Below are positions 31,981-44,812 of a stretch of 64,000 bases of DNA, one piece after another. This DNA is from Ardenticatenales bacterium (GTDB lineage Bacteria; Chloroflexota; Anaerolineae; Epilineales; Epilineaceae). The notes beneath the pieces were generated by a model. It ran no database searches. It was not told the DNA's origin and saw only the letters and a list, made by a program, of their open reading frames with translations. Where the stretch lies: assembly GCA_020853525.1 (NCBI GenBank), contig JADYYS010000011.1, positions 1 through 64,000 of the forward strand, read 5' to 3'. Both the position numbers and the translations under genes were made by a program. Numbering within the stretch: position 1 is the first letter of the stretch; every line of letters begins with the position of its first letter.

Positions 31981-31996
31981 GCCGTAGGGCTACGGC
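31981..31996. terminator. Small hairpin between convergent genes
   Basis: GCCGTAG-GG-CTACGGC: 7-bp arms around two bases, with the right arm containing the TAG stop of the minus-strand FG-GAP gene. It is the only inverted repeat in the 35-base gap between the GT39 and FG-GAP genes. The 2-base loop is too tight, so outer pairs would open. Confidence 0.35.
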
Positions 31997-34900
31997 CGAT
32001 ACGACCGCGGCGGCGGGCACGTGGCCACCGGGTCCGGCGGCGGGGTGACGTTGGGGCCGACGAGGCAGCCGGCGCGCCAGACGGGCGGGTTGAACAGCTT
32101 GTTGTAGCGGATGCCGCGGTTCGTGAGGTCGAGGCAGACGCGGCGCGGGTTCGGCAGCTCGTCGTAGCCGGGCGTCGGGTACCTCGGGCTGCCGGGGACG
32201 TTCGGGTTGGCGAGGTCGTTCAGGCCGTAGAAGCCCGGCGGGTCCGCGTCCGAGTTCTGGAAGACGAGCGCCAGCTGGGCCTGGGCGGTGGCCAGGATGG
32301 GCGGGCGCTCACAGTCGGTGACGCGCCAGTCCTGGTAGATGACGAGGCAAACGCACGGCGCGGCCATGCCGGTCGGGGTCGCGCTGGGCGTGTGCGTCGC
32401 GGTGGCGGTGGGCGTCCGGGTGGGTGTGGCGGTCGGGGTGTGCGTCGGGGTCGTGGTCGACGTGTGCGTGGGCGTCCGGGTGGGCGTGGCGGTGGGCGTG
32501 TGGGTGGGCGTCGACGTACGCGTCGGCGTGGCGGTCGACGTGGCGGTCGGCGTGATCGTCGGGGTGGGCGTGGCGGTGGCCGTGCGCGTGGCCGTCGCCG
32601 TGCGGGTGGGCGTCGGCGAGGTCGTCGCCGTCGGCGTCGTCGTGGGTGTCGACGTGTGCGTGGCGGTCGGCGTAAGCGTTGGGGTGGGCGTGGAGGTGGC
32701 CGTGTGCGTCGCGGTCGGGGTCGACGTGGCGGTGTTCGTGGGCGTGGCGGTCGACGTGTGCGTCGCCGTCGGCGTCTGGGTCGGCGTGGCGGTGAATGTG
32801 CTCGTCGGGGTCGCGGTCGGCGTGTGCGTGGCCGTGTGCGTGGCGGTGGCCGTGTTCGTCGGCGTCGCGGTAGGGGTCGATGTGGCGGTCTTCGTCGGCG
32901 TTGCCGTGTTCGTCGGCGTGGCCGAGCTCGTCGGGGTCGCCGTGGCGGTCTGGCACGGACCGTTGATGCAGTCGTTGAGGAAGACGTTCTCCGGCTCGCC
33001 GCACGCGCCCGCGTTGGCGACGACGATGTCCGGGCAGCGGTCGCCGTTCAGGTCGGCGGCGGCGACCGCCAGGCCGTCGTGGTTGCCGGCGGGTGGGGCG
33101 AGGAGGCGGACGGGGGCCGGGTCGAACGCGACGGGGCCGAGCGGGCGGCGGAAGGCGTCGCGCGGTGTCGTGTTCAGCCACACCAGATCGCCCCGCTCGC
33201 TCGGGCAGGCGTCGAGGCCGAGGGCGGGGTTGGGCAGCCAGCGCAGCGTGCTCACGACGGCGTCGAGGTCGCAGTCGCCGTCGAAGTCGGCCAGGGCGAT
33301 GCCGGTCGAGTTGGCCTGGCCGAGGCGGAGCGCGTTCGGGTCGAACGTCCCGTTGCCGTTGTTCATATAGACCACGTCGGCCGCGCCGCGCAGGTTGGCG
33401 TTGGCGACGTAGGCGTCAAGATCGCCGTCTTCGTCGAGGTCGCCGAGCGCCACGCCGAAGCTGAAGTCGCCGCCGAAGCGCTGTCGCTCCGTGAAGCCGC
33501 CGCGGCCGTCGTTCAGCCAGACGGACTCCTTGTCTTCCTCGCGGGCGATTCCGGCGTTCGCCAGGAACGCGTCGAGGTCGCCGTCGCCGTCGAGGTCGCC
33601 GAGCGCGACGTCCGTCGTGAAGGGCGCCCGGTCGCGGTCGCCCGGGTAGTCGGGCGACGTGCCGACGCCGATCCGCTGCCCGCTGTCGCTGAACGTGCCG
33701 CGGCCGTCGTTCCGCCAGACGGTGTCGGGGCCGGTGTTCGCGAACCAGATGTCGAGGTCGCCGTCGCCGTCCACGTCGCCGAGCGCCGCCGCGTTGCCGC
33801 GGTCGTTGCCGAGCCGCTGGCCGCCGTCGCGCAGCGTGCCCCGGCCGTCGTTGAGGAGCACGGCGTCGGCCGCGCCCGTCCGGCCGGTGTTCACGACGAC
33901 GGCATCGAGGTCGCGGTCGCCGTCCACGTCGCCCAGCACGACGTCCTTGGCATTGTAGCGTCCGGCGATCTGCGCGACGGACAGGTTGCCGGCGCCGTCG
34001 TTCGTCAGCACCTGCAGGTCCGCCCCCGCGCTCGGCCCGCCCCGCTCGCTCTCGATGTTCGCGACGACGGCATCGCTGTCGCCGTCGCCGTCGAGGTCGC
34101 CGAGCGCAACGCCCTCGCTGTTGCCGCCGCCCATCCGCCGGCCGCCGATCGATTGGCCGGTGTCCTCGAACAGGTCGGGCGAGGGATTGCTCGAGGTGCG
34201 GACGGTGGCGCTGACGTTCAGCCAGACCTCGTCGGCCTCGCCCTCGTCGAAGCGGCAGAAGCCGTCGGGCGGGGCGCCGTAGTTGGCGGCGAAGAGGTCG
34301 GGGACATCGTCGCCGTTCACGTCGTCGACCGCCAGCCCCCAGGTGTTGGCGTTGCCGAGCCGCATCCCGCTGTCGACCAGGACGACGCTGTCCTTCCCCC
34401 GGCTCTCGTTCAGGTAGACGACGTTGGGCGCGCCGCAGACGCCCGATTCGGCGACGACGGCGTCCAAGTCCTGATCGCCGTCGATATCGGCGAAGCGAAC
34501 CCCGAAGCTGTAGAGGGCAGGGAAGACGATGCCGCTGTCCCGGAACGCGATGGTGCCGGACTGTCGCGGCCAATACGTCAGGTCGGGCGTCGGCCGTGCC
34601 GGGTTGTCCGGCTCGCTGACGTTGATCCAGACCTTGTCGCGGTTCTCGCCCGGACTGGCGCCGGCGTTCGCCTCGAACACGTCCAGGTCGCCGTCGCCGT
34701 CGAGGTCGCCGAGCGCGATGTCGACGGTGTGCGGCCCGTCGCCGTTGACGTGCCGCTCGCCGATCCGCAGCGTGCTGTCGCGCAGCTGGATCGGGCGGGC
34801 GGACAGCGGGCCGGCGGGGCCGGGGCCGGGAGGCGGCGTGTCGTTCAGCCAGAGCTTGTCCAAGCCCGTCTCGGCCGTGTAGGCGTCCAGGTCGCCGTCG

Positions 34901-35688
34901 CCGTCGAGGTCGCCCAGGGCCACGGCGTTGCCGCGCCGCTCGCCGATCCGGAGGCCGGAGTCGGCGAACCGCCCGCCGCCCACGTTCACCCAGACGTTGT
35001 CCGCCTGGCCGCGGTTCACGCGGAGCGGGTGGTCGATGTCGGGCACGTCGCGTACGACGACGCCGAGGTCCTCGGGTCCGGTCTCGTGGTTGTTGGCGAC
35101 ATACGCATCGAGGTCGCCGTCGCCGTCGAGGTCGCCCAGGGCGACGCCGCGGCCGTCCGCGTGGCCGAGGCGCTGGCCGCTGTCGGCGAAGCGGGCGCGG
35201 CCGTCGTTCAGCCAGACCTGGTCGCCGGCGCCGAAGCGGTCGGGGTCGCCGTCGACGGCGAAGGCCGGGATCAGCTCGTCGAAGCCGCCCATGCTGAAGA
35301 AGGCGTCGAGGTCGCCGTCCGCGTCGAGGTCGCCGAGGGCGACGTCCCAGGCATTGCCCGCCGCCAGGCGCTGGCCGGTATCCGTGAAGGCGCCCTTGCC
35401 GTCGTTCAGCCAGACCTGGCTGATGCCCTTGCAGCGCGGGCAGTCCGCGATCCGGGCGATGACGGCGTCCCGGTCGCCGTCGCCGTCGAGGTCGCCGAGC
35501 GCAACGGCCAGGCTCTTGCCGCCCATCGGCACACCGCCCATCGGCCCGCGCGGCAGGACGCCGCGGTCCGTAAACGTGGGACGGGCGCCCTGCGCGGACA
35601 CCGCCGACGCGCCGACGAACGCCGCGGCCGTGAGGACGGCGGCGGTGAGGCAGGCGGCGCGGCACGGCGACGTGAGGCGGCGGCGCAT
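31990..35688 (-). CDS. Secreted FG-GAP/VCBS repeat protein with mucin-like Thr/Pro domain
   Basis: About 1232 residues. A signal peptide ([22 protein letters not shown]) precedes 14 repeats of the form [18 protein letters not shown], each with a DxDxDxxxD calcium-binding loop, predicting a large propeller or integrin-alpha-like fold. Next comes a region of about 190 residues made almost only of Thr, Pro, Ala, Ser and His (encoded near 32360-32950), then a Cys-containing C-terminal domain of about 110 residues. GGAG lies 11 bases before the ATG at 35688; an ATG 18 bases earlier has no site. Probable surface adhesin or structural protein. Confidence 0.85.
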
Positions 35689-35867
35689 GGGCGGTGGAAG
35701 CTCCATTACGGATTCGTAACCAGCAGCACATCGATAAGAACGTCTCATGAGAGACAACGGATACGGACCCTGCGGCGACGATACGCGGGAAGTTCCGGTC
35801 CGCCAAAGCGGCTGCCCGTGCTAAGATGCCGGTTCGCAAGCCCGTCCCTCCGCCAAGGAAACGCCGC

Positions 35868-36506
35868 ATGACCTTCAAGATCGACCGTCGCGTGTTCTAT
35901 GCCGCCCTGGCCGTCCTCGCACTCGGCGGGGCGCTGGCCGTCGGCCTCCTGGTCGGTCGCGGGACCGGCGCGCCGGGCAGTACCGCCCAGGTGGACGCCC
36001 CGGCCGACCCCGCCGCCCTGCCCACATCCGCCGTGGCGCCGATCGACGGCGCCCCCACCGTCGACCCGGCGTTCGCCGAGCTGCCGCGGATCGAGATCGC
36101 GGACGCGTTCCAGCGATTCGAGCAGGGCGACGCGCTCTTCGTGGATGCGCGCGCGCCCGGTGAGTTCACCTACGAGCACATTCCGGGCGCGGTGAACATC
36201 CCGTACACCGAGGCCGAGGCCCGCATGGGCGAGCTGCCGACGGACAAGGACATCATCGTCTACTGTGCCTGACCGTCCGCCCAAGAAAGCGTCCGTGCGG
36301 CGCAAACGTGGGTGGACAAGGGGATGAAGAACGTCGTCGTCATGTGGGACGGGTTGAATTCGTGGAAGTCCGCCGGCCATCCGGTCGATCCGCCCGCCGC
36401 GGGCGGTGCCGCCGACCCGGGCGCAGCGGGGGCTGCCGACGACGGCAGCGCGCCGCTGATGATCACGGTGCCGGCCGGCAGCGCCGCGACGCCGGTGCTG
36501 CCCTGA
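35868..36506 (+). CDS. Membrane-anchored rhodanese with in-frame UGA (candidate selenoprotein)
   Basis: Read through TGA at 36270-36272, this is one 212-residue frame. An N-terminal anchor (VFYAALAVLALGGALAVGLL), a Pro/Ala linker, and a rhodanese domain from about residue 72: LFVDARAPGEFTYEHIPGAVNIP, then the active-site strand IIVYC(133)-A-UGA(135)-PSAQES, then the second half RAAQTWVDKGMKNVVVMWDGLNSW, needed for the fold. Related rhodaneses carry YCxCP here, so UGA replaces the second Cys. A SECIS-like hairpin follows. AAGGAA lies 8 bases before the ATG. Stopping at UGA would leave a 134-residue half domain. The alternative is a nonsense mutation; selenocysteine genes are not in the window. 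Confidence 0.7.
36270..36317 (+). promoter_or_regulatory. UGA codon with SECIS-like hairpin
   Basis: Downstream of the UGA, 36275-36283 (GTCCGCCCA) pairs with 36309-36317 (TGGGTGGAC) through 9 pairs including one G-U. Inside it GCGTC (36289-36293) pairs with GGCGC (36299-36303) around a 5-nt loop CGUGC holding a GU. The loop begins 22 nt after the UGA, within the range known for bacterial SECIS elements, whose apical G/U contacts SelB. The fold was made by hand. Confidence 0.5.
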
Positions 36507-36540: not shown

Positions 36541-38241
36541 TCATCGGGGTCGTGCCCAGATCCAGGCATAGTCGATTCCGTTCAGCCGGACGACGTGTGT
36601 CGGCGGTCGCCCCTCGACCGCCGACAGGATCTCCTCCGGCTCGCCGATCTGCCGGTCGTCGATCATGACGACGAGCCAGCCGGCGTCGCGCCACTTCTTG
36701 GGCGCCACGATGCGGCCACGATAACCGTACGCGAGCAGAACGTCGCTGGCTGTGGCGACGGTGTGCTCCGCCGCGGTCGACCACCCGGTGCGATCCTGGG
36801 CATGCAACCATGCCACGACGAGGTCCGAGCCCTCGCCCCAGCCGACGGGCAGCACGCGCGCCGCCGCCGGCCCGCCGCCGAGGAGCGGGTTGTACCACGC
36901 CAGGTAGGTCGGGTGGTGGGCCACGACGAACGCGGCCTGCAGCGCGACCGCCGCCGCCAACGCCGCGGCCTGCCGTCGCGCCTGCCGCCCGACATGGCCG
37001 ACGCCCCAGAGGTCCGCCACGGCCCACGCCGACGGCGAAGGCGTCGCGGTGTCGGGCGCATCGATCGCGACCCCCTCCCGCGCCTGCCACCGCCGCGCGG
37101 CGTCGACGAGGACCACGAGCCCGACCGCCGCCACGACGTCGAGCGCCGGCAGGCTGGGGAGCATGTAGCGCTCGAACTTCTTGGCGCCCGCACCCATCGC
37201 CAGCACGAAGACCACCGCCCACGCCAGCAGCAAGGCCGCCGTCCACCGCCCACGCCGCGCCTCGCGCCCGGCCGCGAAGACGCCGACCGCCAGCCCCACG
37301 AGCGACAGCGGCGTCATCCGCCAAGGGATCGCGGCCAGGTAGAGGCCGATGCCGGGGTCGGGCGAGACCCGCCCGGCAAAGAAGACGGCCTCGCGCGCCT
37401 GCCCCGCGCCTTCGGCCGCGTACGCCAGCATGCGCTGGAATGTCTCGACGGGTGCGACCCACATCGCCGGCCAGACGGCGACGTACGTGATGGCGGCCGC
37501 AACGGCGACGACGACGCCGGCGTCCAGCCACCGCACGAGGCCGTCGCCCACACGCGTCCGACTCCGGCTGCGCACGGCGTCGACGACGATCCGCACCGTG
37601 ATGACCGCCGCGACGAATGCTCCCAGGACGAGCATCGGCGACTTTTCCACGATCGCCAGGCCGGTCGCGACGCCCGTGGCGATGAGCCAGCGCTTCGAGG
37701 GCGCGGGTGGCGCGCTGTCGAGCCGGCGCGCGAGGACGTCGAGCCAGCGCGCCAGGCAGAGGACGGCGACGAGGGCGAGCGAGGCGGCGACGGCGTCGAG
37801 GTGGAGGACGCGGCTGTGGGCGAGGAGGTAGGGGTCGAAGGCGAGGAGGGCGGCGGCCGTCGTCGCTGCCGGCGTGCCGACGAGGGGGCGGGCGAGCCAC
37901 CAGGCGAGGGCGATGGCGAGGGCGGTGAGGAGGGCGATTGCGGCGCGCATGCCGTCGAGCGGATCGACATCGTCATCGACGACGGACTCCGACGGGCGAT
38001 CGGCAATCGCCAACGCCACCGCGCCGGCCCACATCGTGACGACGCCCGGGTGCTCGCGCTGGAAGGTCTGTCGGAGATCGCCGCCCTCGAGCGCTTGCAG
38101 GAATGCGGTCGACCGCTCGGCCCACGTCGGCTCGTCCCAGGTGACGAAGCGGGCGGGGGCGAGGAGGCGGGGGGCCAGGGCTAGGGTGAAGATGGCGAGG
38201 CAGGCGAATGAGGTCGCGATGCGACCACGTGAGGCCCTCAC
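36541..38241 (-). CDS. Family-39-type membrane glycosyltransferase
   Basis: About 566 residues with some ten membrane helices and a soluble C-terminal region. The external loop has VTWDEPTW (catalytic-type Asp-Glu) and REHPGVVTMWAG; later helices carry VWPAMWVAPVETFQRML and AGAKKFERYMLPSLPAL. It shares the (R/K)EHPGVVTMW, WPAMWV and KKFxRYxLP motifs with the next gene upstream (38238-42146), so the two are paralogues. I chose the GTG at 38241, which overlaps the upstream stop in a GTGA; an ATG 30 bases earlier is possible. Likely sugar transfer from a polyprenyl carrier. Confidence 0.82.
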   Translation of the reverse strand: MRASRGRIATSFACLAIFTLALAPRLLAPARFVTWDEPTWAERSTAFLQALEGGDLRQTFQREHPGVVTMWAGAVALAIADRPSESVVDDDVDPLDGMRAAIALLTALAIALAWWLARPLVGTPAATTAAALLAFDPYLLAHSRVLHLDAVAASLALVAVLCLARWLDVLARRLDSAPPAPSKRWLIATGVATGLAIVEKSPMLVLGAFVAAVITVRIVVDAVRSRSRTRVGDGLVRWLDAGVVVAVAAAITYVAVWPAMWVAPVETFQRMLAYAAEGAGQAREAVFFAGRVSPDPGIGLYLAAIPWRMTPLSLVGLAVGVFAAGREARRGRWTAALLLAWAVVFVLAMGAGAKKFERYMLPSLPALDVVAAVGLVVLVDAARRWQAREGVAIDAPDTATPSPSAWAVADLWGVGHVGRQARRQAAALAAAVALQAAFVVAHHPTYLAWYNPLLGGGPAAARVLPVGWGEGSDLVVAWLHAQDRTGWSTAAEHTVATASDVLLAYGYRGRIVAPKKWRDAGWLVVMIDDRQIGEPEEILSAVEGRPPTHVVRLNGIDYAWIWARPR

Positions 38242-41200
38242 CGCACCGTCACCCGTCCGACCTTCACCCACCCGTCGCTGCCCGTCGCGCCGTCGCCCGT
38301 CGCGGCCACCGGCGCGTCGCTCCCGTCGGCGGCCGTCAGGCGGACGACGATGTCGTAGCGACCGGCAGCCTGCACGTCGGCGACGAGGATGTGGCGATCA
38401 CGGATGACCTCGCCGCCGATCCACGACGTGATCCGCCGCCGGCCGTCGGCGGGGGCGAAGCCTTCGGCGGACACGACGTCGCCGTCGCCATTCATGAAGC
38501 CGATCCAGAAGAGCTGGTCGGTATCGGATTGCGTCAGCGCCTCCCACCACAACGTCACCGTCACCGGGGCGTTCGCGTCGACGCGGCTGGCGGCGACCTC
38601 GGCCGCACGGAGCTTGGCGAGGTCGCCGAACGTGACGTCGCGCGGGGCGTCGGACGGCACGTCGGGCGGCGGGTCGTAGATGCGGAGGGGGCCGTCGATC
38701 GTGAATGGTGCGGTGAGTGACGCCCAGCCGTCCGGACCTTGACCGCGCAAGGGCCGCTGATCCGCGTCGAGCAGCGTGAAGCGGATGAAGCCCTCGCCGG
38801 CCATCGCGCGGCCGTAGATCGGGGCGTAGTAGTCCGCTCGGAGGCGGTCGCCGGCTTGCCACCGGTCGACGGGCAGCGCGACGATCGGCGCCGTCATGTC
38901 GCTGACGTTGGCGCCGATCGTGTCGGTGATGCGGATGTGGACGAAGGCGGGCAGAGACGTGGGGGTCCCGACCGTGGCGGTCGTCGAGGTCGAGGCGCCG
39001 GCCGGGACGGACCAGACAGCGGTCACCGCCGCGGCGTTGCCTGCCTCGACCGGCCGGTCCACGTCAAAGCCCCAGAGCGCGGCGGCGTCGGCGAGCGGAG
39101 CGTCGATGTGGCCGTGCGTCAGGCCCAGCGCCGAGTCGTCGAAGGCGACGGCGGCGCGGCCGACGTCGATCGGGAAGGCGAAGACACCGTCCGGCAGCCG
39201 CTGCTCGTCCGTCAACGGCGTCGGATCGCCGGCCGGACGTGCCGCGGCGTCGAGGCGGCGGCCGGTGCGGCCATCATAGACGCCGATCAGCAGCGTGTAG
39301 CGTCCGGGGACGGTGCCGGCCGGGACGGACACGACGCGGCGGTCGAGCGCGGTCTCGTTCAGCGGCCATTGCGAGGTGGGGCGACCGGCGGCATCGAGCA
39401 GCGGCCGATCGTCCTGGGCAAGCCGACGCGCGCCGATCACGCCGACGTCGGCGGCCGGAACGAGATGAAAGAAGCCCACGAGGTCGGCGTCGACCGCGGC
39501 CGGGCGCTCCCAGCGCAACGTGATCGGCAACCCACGCCCGGGCTCCGCCGCGCGTGTCGGCACGTCGATGCCGACGAGGACAACGCCGACGGCCGGATCC
39601 GCCGGATCACGGTCGAAGTAGCCGATCGGCTCCGACAACGCCGCCGTCGTGCGGATCTGCATCGTCGTGCTGACACCGGACGAGGCGCCGCCGTCCGCCG
39701 TCGGGTCTACGCCCGCCGGCGCGCCGCCGCTCGTCAGCGGATCGACGACGGATGGACCGGCGGTGTCGGTCTGGACTTCCGGCGCCCGGTCGAAGCGCGA
39801 TACGCGCAGCTCGTCGTACGCGCTGTCGGCGGTGCGGTAGGCGTTCACGGCCAGCGCATCGTCGACGCGGCGGAGGGCGCGGTACGGGACGACGTCTTCG
39901 TAGCGGACCCACCAGAGGCGTTCGTGCGTGATGAACGCTGCCTCGAGCAGCGCGTCGACGGCCTCGTCCGTCGCGTCCGGATCGACCTCGATGACGACGA
40001 GGGGGCCGCTGTAGCCGCGGGCGAAGCCGGAGCCGGCGCGGACGAGGACGGCGTCGCGGGCGGGGTCGGCGCGGTCGTCGATGAAGTGGGCCGCCGGCTC
40101 CCAGTTGCGGTTGGCGAAGACCCAGCCGTACGTCAGATCGCCCACCTTCATCGTCAGCTCGGGCGCCACGACGGGCGTTGGGGCATGGTCGGGGCGGGCC
40201 TCGGGGCCGAAGTAGCGGTCGATCAGCTCGGGGTCGAGGATCCGCTGGAGCTGGTTGCGGTAGAAGACGAAGTAGTCCGTCATAGCCGGGTCGATGTCGT
40301 CCATGCCGTACGCCGTGCCCTTGAACTGCGGGCCGACGACGGATCGGTAGCGCGTGGCCAGCTGGAGCGTCTCGGGCGAGGGCTGTGCGTTCAGGTAGGC
40401 CGCCGCCTGGTCGAGCCCCTCGCCCCAGCCGAGGAGGAGCGCGAACTCACCGGCCCGCGATCCGCCGACGAGCGGGTTGTAGCCGTCCAGGAAGTAGGGG
40501 CGGTGGGCATAGAGCGTGAAGGCGAGGGACCACGCGACGGCGAGCGCGCCGAAGGCGATGGCGCCCTCGGCTTGGATGGCGGCCATCGTGGCGTCCACCG
40601 ACGATGTCGCCGACGTCGCTGAGGTCGCTGAAGCCGCCGAAGCTGCCGAAGCCGTCGACGCGTCGGTGTCGTCCCGATCGTCCGCCTGCTTGCGGCGCAT
40701 GCCGCGCTCGCCCCATGCGACCAGGGCGGTGGCGATGCCCCAGCCGGCGACGATGTTCAGTGCCGGGAAGACGGGCAGGAGGTAGCGGTCGAACTTCTTG
40801 GCGCCGCCGGTCATGATGAGGGCGAAGAGGAGGGCGAAGGCGACGAGGGCGAGGAGGATCGGGCGGACGGTGCGTGGTGGGACCGCGGGGAGGCGTTCGG
40901 CGGCGGGCGAGGGCACGGCATGCCGTGCCCCTACACGGCCCTTGGGCTGGACCCCCAGGCTCGCGGGATCGTCGTCTGGCAGGCGCGCATCATCTAAGAG
41001 CCCCTCGTTCTTGCCACCACCGTGGTGTAGGGGCACGGCATGCCGTGCCCCCGCGCGGTCCCCGGAACGACCGCCGGCCTCCACCAGTTCACCGCCTGGC
41101 TGCGCACCACGGCGCCGCCATCCGAACCACGCCGCCAACACCAACCCCAGCATCGCCACCGGCGTCGTCCGCAGCGCCCACGCCACCGGGTAGAAGGCGG

Positions 41201-42146
41201 GTCCGGGGTCGACGACGGGCCGGCCCCAGAAGTAGTTGCCGCCCTCGTGTCCCTGGTCGGCGTAGCTCTCGGCGCCGCCGAGGACGTCGGCGAGCGACCG
41301 GATCGGATGGACCCACATGGCGGGCCAGACGACGACGTACGCGGCCGTCGCCGCAGCGCCCCACATCGCCAGCGGCGCCACGACATCGCGCGCCAGCGGG
41401 ACGACGAGGCCGAACGCTTCGCGCACGGTCCGCGGGCGTCGAACGGCGAGGGCGTCGGCGGCGATGAGGAGGCCGGCGACGGGGGCCATGAAGAGCGCGG
41501 GAGACTTATTGACGGCGGCGAGGCCGGCCATCACGCCGGAGAGGAGGAGGTCGCGACGGCGTCGTCCACGGTGGAGCCACAGCAGCAGCCATAGCAGCGA
41601 CAGCGTCATGAGCGTCGTCGTCACGCCGTCGAGGTGGAGGACGCGGCTGTGGGCCACGTAGAACGGGTCGAGGGCGACGACCAGGCCGGCGACGAGGGCG
41701 ACGCGGTGGTCGAACAGGCGGCCGAGGAGCCAGACGATGAGGCCGATCGCCAGGCTGATGAACAGGGCGATGCGGAGGCGGCCGCGGAAGAGGCGGGTCG
41801 TGATCTCGTCCAGCGCCGGGCGGGGCGCGTCGCTGACGAGGTCGCTCGGGTTGATATCGCGGCACGCGATCCGCCAGTCGGCATCGTCGTCGATCGGCTG
41901 ACCGAGGCCGCCGAGCCACATCGTGACGACGCCCGGGTGCTCTTTCTGGTAGGTGGCGGCGAGGTCGCCGGTGGCCAGGGCGTGGTAGAAGTTCGTGCTG
42001 CGGCAGGCCCAGCGGGTTTCGTCGGGAGTGAGGAAGACGTCGAGCTTGGGGAGGCGGACGGCGGCGGCGGCTAGGGCGATGGCGACGGCGAAGAAGGCGG
42101 TGGCGCGGCGGAGGGCGGTGGGGAGGCGGGGGTTGGGGGGGGTCAT
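38238..42146 (-). CDS. Large family-39-type glycosyltransferase with C-terminal beta modules
   Basis: 1302 residues. The N-terminal 520 residues are a GT39 membrane domain (LTPDETRWACRS, KEHPGVVTMWLGG, VWPAMWVHPIRSL, GAKKFDRYLLPVFPAL), paralogous to the neighbour at 36541. The remaining 800 residues are extracytoplasmic beta modules with PGRYTLLIGVYDGRTG and related phrases. Between two membrane helices an insertion of about 60 residues contains GARHAVP twice, each encoded by a palindromic repeat in opposite orientation. A second Ala/Ser-rich insertion (DVADVAEVAEAAEAAE read on the other strand) lies near 40600. ATG overlaps the upstream stop. Confidence 0.8.
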   Translation of the reverse strand: MTPPNPRLPTALRRATAFFAVAIALAAAAVRLPKLDVFLTPDETRWACRSTNFYHALATGDLAATYQKEHPGVVTMWLGGLGQPIDDDADWRIACRDINPSDLVSDAPRPALDEITTRLFRGRLRIALFISLAIGLIVWLLGRLFDHRVALVAGLVVALDPFYVAHSRVLHLDGVTTTLMTLSLLWLLLWLHRGRRRRDLLLSGVMAGLAAVNKSPALFMAPVAGLLIAADALAVRRPRTVREAFGLVVPLARDVVAPLAMWGAAATAAYVVVWPAMWVHPIRSLADVLGGAESYADQGHEGGNYFWGRPVVDPGPAFYPVAWALRTTPVAMLGLVLAAWFGWRRRGAQPGGELVEAGGRSGDRAGARHAVPLHHGGGKNEGLLDDARLPDDDPASLGVQPKGRVGARHAVPSPAAERLPAVPPRTVRPILLALVAFALLFALIMTGGAKKFDRYLLPVFPALNIVAGWGIATALVAWGERGMRRKQADDRDDTDASTASAASAASATSATSATSSVDATMAAIQAEGAIAFGALAVAWSLAFTLYAHRPYFLDGYNPLVGGSRAGEFALLLGWGEGLDQAAAYLNAQPSPETLQLATRYRSVVGPQFKGTAYGMDDIDPAMTDYFVFYRNQLQRILDPELIDRYFGPEARPDHAPTPVVAPELTMKVGDLTYGWVFANRNWEPAAHFIDDRADPARDAVLVRAGSGFARGYSGPLVVIEVDPDATDEAVDALLEAAFITHERLWWVRYEDVVPYRALRRVDDALAVNAYRTADSAYDELRVSRFDRAPEVQTDTAGPSVVDPLTSGGAPAGVDPTADGGASSGVSTTMQIRTTAALSEPIGYFDRDPADPAVGVVLVGIDVPTRAAEPGRGLPITLRWERPAAVDADLVGFFHLVPAADVGVIGARRLAQDDRPLLDAAGRPTSQWPLNETALDRRVVSVPAGTVPGRYTLLIGVYDGRTGRRLDAAARPAGDPTPLTDEQRLPDGVFAFPIDVGRAAVAFDDSALGLTHGHIDAPLADAAALWGFDVDRPVEAGNAAAVTAVWSVPAGASTSTTATVGTPTSLPAFVHIRITDTIGANVSDMTAPIVALPVDRWQAGDRLRADYYAPIYGRAMAGEGFIRFTLLDADQRPLRGQGPDGWASLTAPFTIDGPLRIYDPPPDVPSDAPRDVTFGDLAKLRAAEVAASRVDANAPVTVTLWWEALTQSDTDQLFWIGFMNGDGDVVSAEGFAPADGRRRITSWIGGEVIRDRHILVADVQAAGRYDIVVRLTAADGSDAPVAATGDGATGSDGWVKVGRVTVR
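40911..40934 (-). repeat. Palindromic repeat, copy 4, inside a gene
   Basis: GGGCACGGCA plus its reverse complement, then CTAC. The core is identical to copies 1 and 5. In the GT39 frame it encodes GARHAVP. It continues into ACGGCCCTTGGG, matching the flank of copy 1, so the repeat unit is at least 35 bp there. Confidence 0.75.
41027..41053 (+). repeat. Palindromic repeat, copy 5, inside a gene
   Basis: GTAGGGGCACGGCA then the matching reverse complement, in the opposite orientation to copy 4, 92 bases away in the same GT39 gene. It again encodes GARHAVP. The two copies bracket an insertion of about 140 bases that holds frame. Confidence 0.75.
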
Positions 42147-44812
42147 GGGCCGCCCTGCGCGGCGATCACGTTCACGATGGCCAACCGCACGCGCGTCGTG
42201 CCGGCGTCCGGACCCGCGCTGACGGGCAGCCGCTCGCCCGTTTCGTAGTCGTAGATGCCCACCAGCAGATGGTACTCGCCCGGCGGTTCGTCCGGGGCGA
42301 TATCGATGACCCGACGGTCCAGCACGGTCTCGCCGGCAGCGAGCGATGCGAGGGGACGCGGCTTGCCGCATACGGTCTCGGCCGGAGTCCGCGGCGGGCC
42401 GTCCGCTTGGCCGATCGTGCGGTCGCCTTCGCGCTCGAGGTGAACGAAGACCTGGGCGTTGGGAGAGATGGTCGACGCCAGGGCATGCCAGGCGAGGGTG
42501 AGCGCGATCTGGTCGCCGGGGAGCACGGCGCGGGCGCCGTTCGTGAAGAAGGCGGCGGAAACGGACGGCGTTTCGAGGCTCCAGCCGTCCAGGATCAGCG
42601 TGGGCGGCTCGCCGAACACGTCGCTTCGATCATGGTCGACGATGCGCCCTGGGTCATCGAAGGGCAGACCGGCGTCATAGTGCGGGTCGGTCAGCTCTCG
42701 GTCGAACTCCCTCTCACGAGTCCCCAACCCCCACACAGCCGGGCTCTCGAGCCCAAGCTCGATCGGACCGCCGGGCAGAACGCCGCCGCGCTGCCAGAGC
42801 GATATGCCGTGCGGGCCGCCTCCGGAAACGTGGCCGATCTTCGCGAACCCGGCGGCGGCGACGTCTTCATCCGACGGCGGCGCATCCCGGGGCTCTTCTT
42901 CGCCAAGTACCGGCTGGACATCCTGGACCGCATCCGCCACGAACATCCAACGCGCATCTTCCCCACATCGCGGAGCCCCTCGACTGTACCAAGCCGTGAC
43001 CGCCGGCTCTTCGTTCGAGTCGTATTCTCCGCCCCACTGCATTCCGCCGATCGCCTTCCACCCCGCCCGGTACGGAAACCCGAACCACCCGCTCCCCGGC
43101 AGCTCCGCGAACGGGTACCACGCCCCCGCCACCTGCACGTCCGGGTAGCCGCGCTTGTAGGCCACATCGTGTTGGACGAAGACCATCCAGCTGTAGAACG
43201 CGCTGTAGGCGGCGACGATGGCGAGGGAGGCGGCGAGGGCGCCGGCGACGGGCGTTGCCCAGCGGCCTGCGCCCCCAACCCCCGGCGAGCTTCGCTCGTC
43301 GACCCCTCCCCCAATGCTGGGGGCGGGGTGTAGGCGGTTCCACACGGTGGCAATCGTCAGGGCCGCGATCAGGCTCAGCGCCGGGAACACGACGTGAAAG
43401 TGCGTCCGCGGCGCCTCCACGAGCGTGGCATAGAAGAGCACGGGTGCGGCCAGCCAGAGGGCGGTGGTGGTCCAGGCGGGGTCGCGCGGAGCGGCGAGGA
43501 CCACCAGGGCCAAGGCGACGCCGATCACGAGGATGGCCCAGCTCCGGCCCTCGATGTCGTCCGTGAGCGCGAACCACTCCGGGCGCAGGACGAGGGCGGG
43601 GATCGCCAGCACGCCGAACGCGGCGGCGGCCCAGCCGGCGCGGGGCCAGCGGCGGATGAGGCGCGCCGTGACGGCGGCGGCCACGAGGAGGTCGATGGCG
43701 AACAGGTAATACGCGCTGCTGTAGAAGTTGGCGAGGCCCATCCACTTCGGCAGTGCATCGTACGGCGCGCCGCCGCCCTCGCCGCCGCCCCCGCCGAGAC
43801 GGACTTCGACGAGGTACTTCAGCGTCGTGGACTGGAAGTACGGGTGGCGGACGAGCGGGACGTAGAACGCGGACAGGAGCGCGGTGCCGAGCGCGAAGCC
43901 GGCGGCGACGGCCCACCGTTCGCGGCGCAGGCTGCCGGGGACCGCGCGCCAGCGGGCGACGACCAGGTAGGCGATGGCGGGGGCGGTGAGGGCGGCGTCG
44001 TAGTGGGAGAGGAGGCCGCAGGCGAGGAAGAGGGCGCACAGCACGAGCCACCGTCCCGCCCCGTCGCGATCGTCGTCCGCCGCGTGCCGATACCGCCACG
44101 CGCACCACAGCGCCAACGTCCCGAATAGGAACACCAGCGCCTGATACTGCACGACCCGCCCGAAGGCGATGAAGAAGCCGTTGAGCGATAGGATCACCGT
44201 CGCCGCGAGCCCGACGCGCGCCCCGAACAGCCCGCGGCCGACGACGAGCAGCGCGGCCAGCCCGGCCAGCATCGCCACCGCGAACGGCAGGCGCGCCGTG
44301 CCCTCGTCGATGCGGCGCTGCACGGCGTAGACCTCGGCGGTGATCAGGATCTCCGCCGGCCCCTTCTTGTGGACGTAGATCGCGTCGTGCCGCCCGTCGA
44401 TCGTGGCCGCGGCCTTGTGGAGGACGAGGGCCTCGTCGCCCTGGAACTCCGACCAGCCGAGGTTCGGGAGGCGGAAGAGGGCGGCGAAGGCGATGACGGC
44501 GGCGACTGCGAGCCAGGTGCGGCGGTCGAGGGGGCGGGGGCGGCCGCACGCCTGGCCGCCGCGCCAACGCTGGGCGCCGGCGACGACGACGGCCAGGAGG
44601 AGCGTCGCGCCGACGAACGTCGCCCCGCGCACGCCCCACGGCGTCGCGTTCAGCGCCATGCCCGCGACGACGCTCCACGCGTAGCCGAGGCCGAGCGTGA
44701 GGACGATGCGCTCGAGGGCGTCCGTGCGGTCGCGCCACGGCAGCCAGGCGTCGGCGAGGACGGTGCCGGCGAGCGCGACGAGGGCGAGCCAGGCGAGGGA
44801 GGAGGCGATCAT
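42143..44812 (-). CDS. Family-39-type membrane glycosyltransferase with C-terminal beta module
   Basis: 889 residues. Two or three helices precede the conserved loop EFQGDEALVLHKAAATID, and about ten more follow, then a soluble C-terminal half ending with a beta module (QIALTLAWHALAST...QVFVHLEREGD...ETVLDRRVIDIAPDEPPGEYHLLVGIYDYETGERLPV). Its stop overlaps the ATG of the 38238-42146 gene, so the three GT39 genes form one operon. The start at 44812 lies 6 bases after a TATGAT -10 box, indicating a leaderless transcript; an in-frame extension upstream is unlikely. Confidence 0.82.
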   Translation of the reverse strand: MIASSLAWLALVALAGTVLADAWLPWRDRTDALERIVLTLGLGYAWSVVAGMALNATPWGVRGATFVGATLLLAVVVAGAQRWRGGQACGRPRPLDRRTWLAVAAVIAFAALFRLPNLGWSEFQGDEALVLHKAAATIDGRHDAIYVHKKGPAEILITAEVYAVQRRIDEGTARLPFAVAMLAGLAALLVVGRGLFGARVGLAATVILSLNGFFIAFGRVVQYQALVFLFGTLALWCAWRYRHAADDDRDGAGRWLVLCALFLACGLLSHYDAALTAPAIAYLVVARWRAVPGSLRRERWAVAAGFALGTALLSAFYVPLVRHPYFQSTTLKYLVEVRLGGGGGEGGGAPYDALPKWMGLANFYSSAYYLFAIDLLVAAAVTARLIRRWPRAGWAAAAFGVLAIPALVLRPEWFALTDDIEGRSWAILVIGVALALVVLAAPRDPAWTTTALWLAAPVLFYATLVEAPRTHFHVVFPALSLIAALTIATVWNRLHPAPSIGGGVDERSSPGVGGAGRWATPVAGALAASLAIVAAYSAFYSWMVFVQHDVAYKRGYPDVQVAGAWYPFAELPGSGWFGFPYRAGWKAIGGMQWGGEYDSNEEPAVTAWYSRGAPRCGEDARWMFVADAVQDVQPVLGEEEPRDAPPSDEDVAAAGFAKIGHVSGGGPHGISLWQRGGVLPGGPIELGLESPAVWGLGTREREFDRELTDPHYDAGLPFDDPGRIVDHDRSDVFGEPPTLILDGWSLETPSVSAAFFTNGARAVLPGDQIALTLAWHALASTISPNAQVFVHLEREGDRTIGQADGPPRTPAETVCGKPRPLASLAAGETVLDRRVIDIAPDEPPGEYHLLVGIYDYETGERLPVSAGPDAGTTRVRLAIVNVIAAQGGP

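Follow-up and report, generated by a model that had tools for sequence, protein, structure and literature searches.

Known rhodanese-like selenoproteins

Rhodanese-like proteins with a predicted selenocysteine (Sec) have already been catalogued. A 2026 review lists the NCBIfam family NF041203 in its Table 1 as rhodanese-like form 3, CxU, with one Sec and with Zhang and Gladyshev 2005 as the source (PMC13188914), and the same entry appears in a 2022 review as COG0607 form 2 (PMC9312934). Given that NF041203 and these reviews already list one, a CxU rhodanese selenoprotein is a known kind of protein. The initial annotation of the DNA analyzed here noted, correctly, that rhodanese selenoproteins had been described, but overrated the novelty of its candidate, which belongs with this catalogued type as a divergent member.

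The window, a stretch of 64,000 nucleotides from the Chloroflexota genome GCA_020853525.1 (Ardenticatenales bacterium, contig JADYYS010000011.1), contains a rhodanese gene interrupted by an in-frame TGA. The best NCBIfam match of the read-through product is NF041203 (rhodanese_LYCAU, "rhodanese-related (seleno)protein"), with 59.5 bits, which does not reach the equivalog cut-off of 115. Because the protein falls below this cut-off but shares the C-x-U active-site motif within its rhodanese domain, it is best described as a divergent relative of NF041203, and it is probably a mis-annotated member of this group. The model is matched by all 52 aligned homologues, and none of the 400 examined genomes of the window's phylum contains a protein above the cut-off, so that many CxU rhodaneses are probably annotated as two broken pieces. 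The CxU rhodanese family is larger and more varied than the current NF041203 model recognises.

Gene structure and protein architecture

When TGA is translated as U, the gene is a single open frame of 212 residues with U at position 135 (Table 1); the product starts with MTFKIDRRVFY, passes through IIVYCAUPSAQESVR and DGLNSW, and ends at a TGA at 36504-36506. The codons preceding Cys133 and the in-frame TGA are TAC for Tyr132 (36261-36263) and GCC for Ala134, respectively. As the initial annotation anticipated, standard gene calling splits the gene, yielding an open reading frame of 148 aa (35826-36272) and a separate one of 64 aa (36312-36506). The proposed location of the TGA within a rhodanese domain, at Y-C-A-U-P, was confirmed as well: the PF00581 match spans the TGA, with 57.3 bits against a gathering threshold of 22.2, so that read-through restores the domain. 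The start at 35868 is likelier than the upstream ATG at 35826 because it is preceded by a likely ribosome-binding site and because the region up to DRR is common to two relatives (L018 and L019).

Table 1. Features of the rhodanese gene and its predicted SECIS element (window coordinates)
Feature	Coordinates	Strand	Basis
Complete predicted selenoprotein gene	35868..36506	+	TGA=U frame; PF00581; N-terminus as in L018/L019
AAGGA, likely ribosome-binding site, 8 nt before ATG 35868	35855..35859	+	Reading of the sequence
N-terminal hydrophobic helix, residues 7-28, predicted membrane anchor	35886..35951	+	AlphaFold helix; N-termini of homologues
Rhodanese domain, residues 82-168	36111..36371	+	PF00581, E 2.3e-15; fold match
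Cys133 codon TGT, presumed nucleophile, start of active-site loop	36264..36266	+	Cys/Sec at this position in aligned TGA homologues
UGA, predicted Sec135, second residue past Cys133	36270..36272	+	TGA column in at least 155 unique loci; Cys in L200-L207
Predicted SECIS apical hairpin GCGUC-CGUGC-GGCGC	36289..36303	+	Pairing and covariation over 94 sequences
Extended stem around the hairpin, as seen in this species	36273..36321	+	MFE -25.4 kcal/mol, z -2.88

The product begins with a short segment containing two arginines, followed by a hydrophobic helix, a Pro/Ala-rich linker, the rhodanese domain and a low-complexity tail. An AlphaFold2 model, for which the window protein was aligned with the retrieved loci (52 sequences, C replacing U), has pLDDT above 90 at residues ~71-170 and matches solved single-domain rhodaneses with a Foldseek probability of 1.00. 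In this model, Cys133 directly follows the strand 128-132, ahead of the active-site loop, which is the place of the rhodanese nucleophile. A hydrophobic N-terminal segment is present in 89 of the 97 standalone homologues and a lipobox-like motif in 13 of the 97. The domain is therefore probably located outside the cytoplasmic membrane, and judging from this predicted topology, the protein is probably a rhodanese of one domain that is anchored on the outer side of that membrane. Of the membrane-anchored CxU rhodanese for thiol, sulfur or selenium transfer that had been proposed initially, the CxU rhodanese is supported by the present data, the anchor is a predicted feature and the transfer role is hypothetical.

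The two flanking genes, one for an FG-GAP protein and one for a glycosyltransferase of the PMT type, are uninformative with respect to function, and no conserved genomic neighbours were detected among the homologues sampled, the neighbourhoods being mixed. The FG-GAP repeat protein (31990-35757, minus strand; 1255 aa) contains a long Pro/Thr-rich linker, and the long open reading frames antisense to its gene look like composition artefacts. The PMT-like glycosyltransferase, assigned by Pfam, is a membrane protein encoded convergently with the rhodanese (36541-38271, minus strand); the product of the adjoining gene (38238-42371, minus strand) is another membrane protein that appears similar to it by eye.

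Conservation of the in-frame TGA

The TGA is found at the identical codon in at least 155 unique loci from several phyla. In a search with the protein itself, the same TGA column was present in about 17 of 59 other relatives, some from its own family and order and others from elsewhere in the class; the relatives with the identical TGA codon share 36-46% identity, and their frames are intact on both sides of the TGA. Because so many relatives share the TGA at the same codon, a chance stop is excluded. Unrelated stops or frameshifts in close relatives, named at the outset as signs of decay, were not what the orthologues from the same family and order contained; they carry the stop at the identical codon. 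Five TGA-bearing relatives from the same family and order form a group with the window protein in the tree (SH-aLRT 96), and this grouping fits vertical inheritance better than a decaying copy.

At least 118 GTDB stretches match the pattern YC[AT]-TGA-P..E..SAR, in which synonymous bases were left free, and those that were aligned are rhodanese frames. The phyla among the matches listed are Chloroflexota, Acidobacteriota, Rokubacteria, Myxococcota, Nitrospirota, Thermodesulfobacteriota (Desulfofustis glycolicus DSM 9705 and Desulfosarcina alkanivorans PL12 among the matches listed) and a few Pseudomonadota. Within the window's phylum, one strict TGA pattern was matched in 55 of 400 genomes, with 0 matches for the reversed control. 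The Cys version was matched in 2 of the same 400, and the Sec:Cys ratio is indicative only because Cys forms were sought with one pattern, which requires the following Pro that the TGA pattern does not (44 of the 64 listed TGA matches have it). The residues D93, R95, C133, U135, S141, A145, G152 and G162 are invariant across the alignment, the invariance of C133 and U135 stemming partly from the selection of loci and from counting four UxU rows as C at 133 (U written as C).

Cysteine homologues, double-Sec forms and fusions

The expectation that related rhodaneses would have YCxCP at this site, indicative of Cys/Sec exchange, held: YC[ATSD]CP homologues (L200-L207) have Cys exactly at the Sec position. 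Two of these (L200 and L201) are Cys forms from within the phylum, and there are also DedA-rhodanese fusions (plasmids of Burkholderiaceae and Xanthomonas). The Cys forms placed in the tree, which is shallowly resolved, branch inside the Sec forms. The hairpin is absent from the predicted folds of the seven Cys homologues examined; pairing in register alone is a weak control, given that L202 pairs all five columns by chance while its predicted fold lacks the hairpin.

Double-Sec rhodaneses with Y-U-[TA]-U, encoded by TGA-NNN-TGA, were identified in eight genomes (L079, L208, L209 and L213-L217, where L213-L215 are the same as L031, L023 and L044). These forms have a single hairpin, located behind the second TGA. 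Among 396 genomes of the class, 10 match the UxU pattern, 7 of them in rhodanese frames, and, given the well-supported branches of the tree, UxU and CxU must have interchanged at least twice. The UxU variant was not found in the papers searched, and it may be unreported because the table in PMC13188914 gives one Sec for NF041203.

The CxU rhodanese domain also occurs in larger proteins. It forms the C-terminus of a CPA-type Na+/H+ exchanger in L052-L057, L060, L062, L063 and L096 (open frames of ~530-690 aa; PF00999 confirmed for L052 and L096), and it is fused to a multihaem cytochrome c in L158 (1719-2165) and to a patatin-like phospholipase in L160 (3476-4800); in L157, a CxU rhodanese gene adjoins a multihaem cytochrome gene. 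In L153, L156 and other loci of Acidobacteriota and Rokubacteria, there is an apparent Sec version of the DedA-type/rhodanese fusion whose annotated form in Burkholderiaceae and Xanthomonas has Cys.

The predicted SECIS element

The SECIS-like hairpin with a GU-containing loop that had been noticed after the TGA is conserved and covarying. It lies within a longer stem and, with the U of the UGA taken as position 1, starts at position 20; only 1 of 200 shuffles was as stable as the longer stem (z -2.9). The codons behind the UGA are strongly biased: Ser is encoded by AGY in 153 of 156 sequences and the next Ala by GCC in 150 of 156, and the codon after that Ala is CGT, CGG, AGT, AGG or GGT only, with T or G as the third base, in all 156. 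The search pattern put no constraint on these AGY, GCC and third-base positions. The consensus hairpin is G-C-G-C-C / C-G-K-N-N / G-G-C-G-C, at a fixed distance from the UGA. Over 94 sequences, 98.1% of the cells are paired and 24 are double-changed, compared to 3.4 in shuffles; none of 500 shuffles scored as high on any covariation measure, and sliding the partner strand abolishes the pairing. The double changes are mostly C-G to U-A and fall at third codon positions and, therefore, are not forced by the protein sequence. No such hairpin is present at the terminal TGA of the gene (36504). Scanned against Rfam at gathering thresholds, the window yielded one tRNA only, with no match to a SECIS model. 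The family provides a clean RNA/protein system for the study of bacterial SECIS elements, in which the UxU forms allow a test of whether two UGAs can be served by a single SECIS.

Selenocysteine machinery

Absence of selB or selC from the genome would have spoken against the proposed selenoprotein, but all four sel genes are present in the same assembly: selB (contig C44, 325 bits, cut-off 242), selA (C31, 537 bits), selC for tRNA-Sec (C26, anticodon TCA, 68 bits) and selD (C30, 362 bits). Among the relatives, about 50 of 60 have a clear tRNA-Sec (>60 bits), and where it is missing from a TGA-bearing genome, that genome is an incomplete MAG; for some TGA-bearing relatives, likewise incomplete MAGs, there was no full match to selB or tRNA-Sec. 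With tRNA-Sec present in almost all members of the class, its co-occurrence with the TGA gene is uninformative. The selD gene (C30:144400-145326, L048) is itself likely to encode a selenoprotein: it has an in-frame TGA in the context ACAGUASKMGPEAL, followed by a stable hairpin. The stretch ACAGUASK corresponds to the U-x-x-K motif, an arrangement that marks Sec-containing SelD (PMC13188914).

Alternative explanations of the in-frame TGA

Four independent lines, namely conservation of the codon, the hairpin, the Cys counterparts and the machinery, jointly lead us to predict, with near certainty, that the product is a selenoprotein. On its face, one in-frame stop seen in one assembly (76 contigs) could be a nonsense mutation in a decaying gene or a sequencing or assembly error, but the identical TGA recurs across phyla as well as in relatives with 36-46% identity, with intact frames and a conserved hairpin, and we assign this explanation a negligible probability; a single contaminating sequence behind the homologues is excluded by their divergence. 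Genome-wide reassignment of TGA to another amino acid, for which nothing speaks beyond the in-frame TGA itself, is equally improbable: TGA is the normal stop of the rhodanese gene (36504) as well as of the PMT gene next to it (36541-36543), homologues with another residue at this site have Cys, and the TGA is kept together with the hairpin and the sel genes. Somewhat less remote, albeit still very unlikely, is conditional read-through of the UGA as a regulatory switch whereby, without selenium, a 134-residue membrane stub with a function of its own would be made. Selenoprotein mRNAs yield a truncated product under Sec limitation, so that such a product would be expected from any of them; the conservation of the downstream half, however, implies that the full protein is selected.

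Proposed chemistry

Under the selenoprotein reading, SelB and tRNA-Sec would decode the UGA at 36270, directed by the hairpin downstream, to yield a membrane-tethered rhodanese with the active-site loop C133-A-U135-P. Cys133 would accept sulfane sulfur from a persulfide or polysulfide. Sec135, placed in a loop that exceeds that of ordinary sulfurtransferases by about two residues, would then attack the Cys133 persulfide and free sulfide, and the resulting Cys-S-Se-Sec bond (selenenylsulfide) would be reduced by an outside thiol or redox partner. Such a Cys/Sec mechanism would make the protein a redox, i.e., persulfide- or polysulfide-reducing, rhodanese and not a simple sulfur donor. With the chemistry taken loosely, as a Cys/Sec site for redox or sulfur handling, we consider the whole explanation likely; for the specific persulfide-reducing chemistry of Cys133 and Sec135, the chances within the selenoprotein reading appear evenly balanced. 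No experimental function of any CxU rhodanese was found in the literature.

The protein could instead be a true sulfur- or selenium-transferase, in which Sec135 would carry and pass on sulfane sulfur or selenium with the assistance of Cys133. The rhodanese fold is a sulfurtransferase fold, and the sequence and fold matches of the window protein include thiosulfate sulfurtransferases and persulfide enzymes, with weak family matches to GlpE and to the N-termini of selenouridine synthases. However, the length of the loop, counted in the sequence, is unlike that of GlpE-type rhodaneses. The active-site loop of GlpE-type sulfurtransferases has six residues; in the window protein, this classical C-x4-R-[ST] loop does not occur, and eight residues extend from Cys133 to the residue before Ser141 in the sequence alignment. 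Furthermore, conserved Cys/Sec pairs are found more typically at redox sites, and the probable export of the protein would separate it from SelD and the tRNA-modifying enzymes. We therefore regard a transferase as rather unlikely. The near-invariance of CxU, the replacement of the first Cys by Sec in YUxU, and the multihaem cytochrome as fusion partner (L158) or neighbour (L157) fit a redox role better.

Implications

CxU rhodanese selenoproteins are common in the window's phylum (by the strict pattern above) and occur also in Acidobacteriota, Rokubacteria, Myxococcota and sulfate reducers. On a speculative note, to which we attach a low probability, these proteins might constitute a large, under-annotated lineage of exported CxU and UxU rhodaneses in which a selenenylsulfide (or, in the UxU forms, a diselenide) serves for persulfide or polysulfide reduction on the surface of the cell, with two adjacent UGAs decoded through one SECIS in the UxU forms. 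If true, persulfide or polysulfide reduction would be a redox activity not described for rhodaneses.

Comparison with known systems

The closest described family, NF041203 (rhodanese_LYCAU), shares with the window protein a single rhodanese domain, the Y-C-A-U loop and one Sec; the window protein differs in having VYCAU, an atypical PSAQESVR loop, a hydrophobic anchor at the N-terminus and a C-terminal tail of low complexity. TsoB (NF045694), a rhodanese/DsbD-fusion-like selenoprotein with UxxxxU, likewise combines a rhodanese-type domain with Sec, but the Sec spacing is different and the model has 572 positions; membership in this family was rejected, with 33.3 bits against a cut-off of 805 for a protein of 212 aa with a single CxU.

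The fusions annotated as DedA family protein/thiosulfate sulfurtransferase GlpE in Burkholderiaceae and Xanthomonas (CxC, YC[AS]CPNE-VSAA) contain a homologous rhodanese domain with Cys at the Sec position and nest among the Sec forms in the tree, but, in addition to the Cys itself, they differ by the lack of the hairpin, a loop one residue shorter and the fused DedA-type membrane protein. The rhodanese domains of E. coli GlpE, PspE and YgaP resemble that of the window protein in the fold and the position of the nucleophile, whereas their active-site loop is shorter and lacks the second Cys/Sec at +2.
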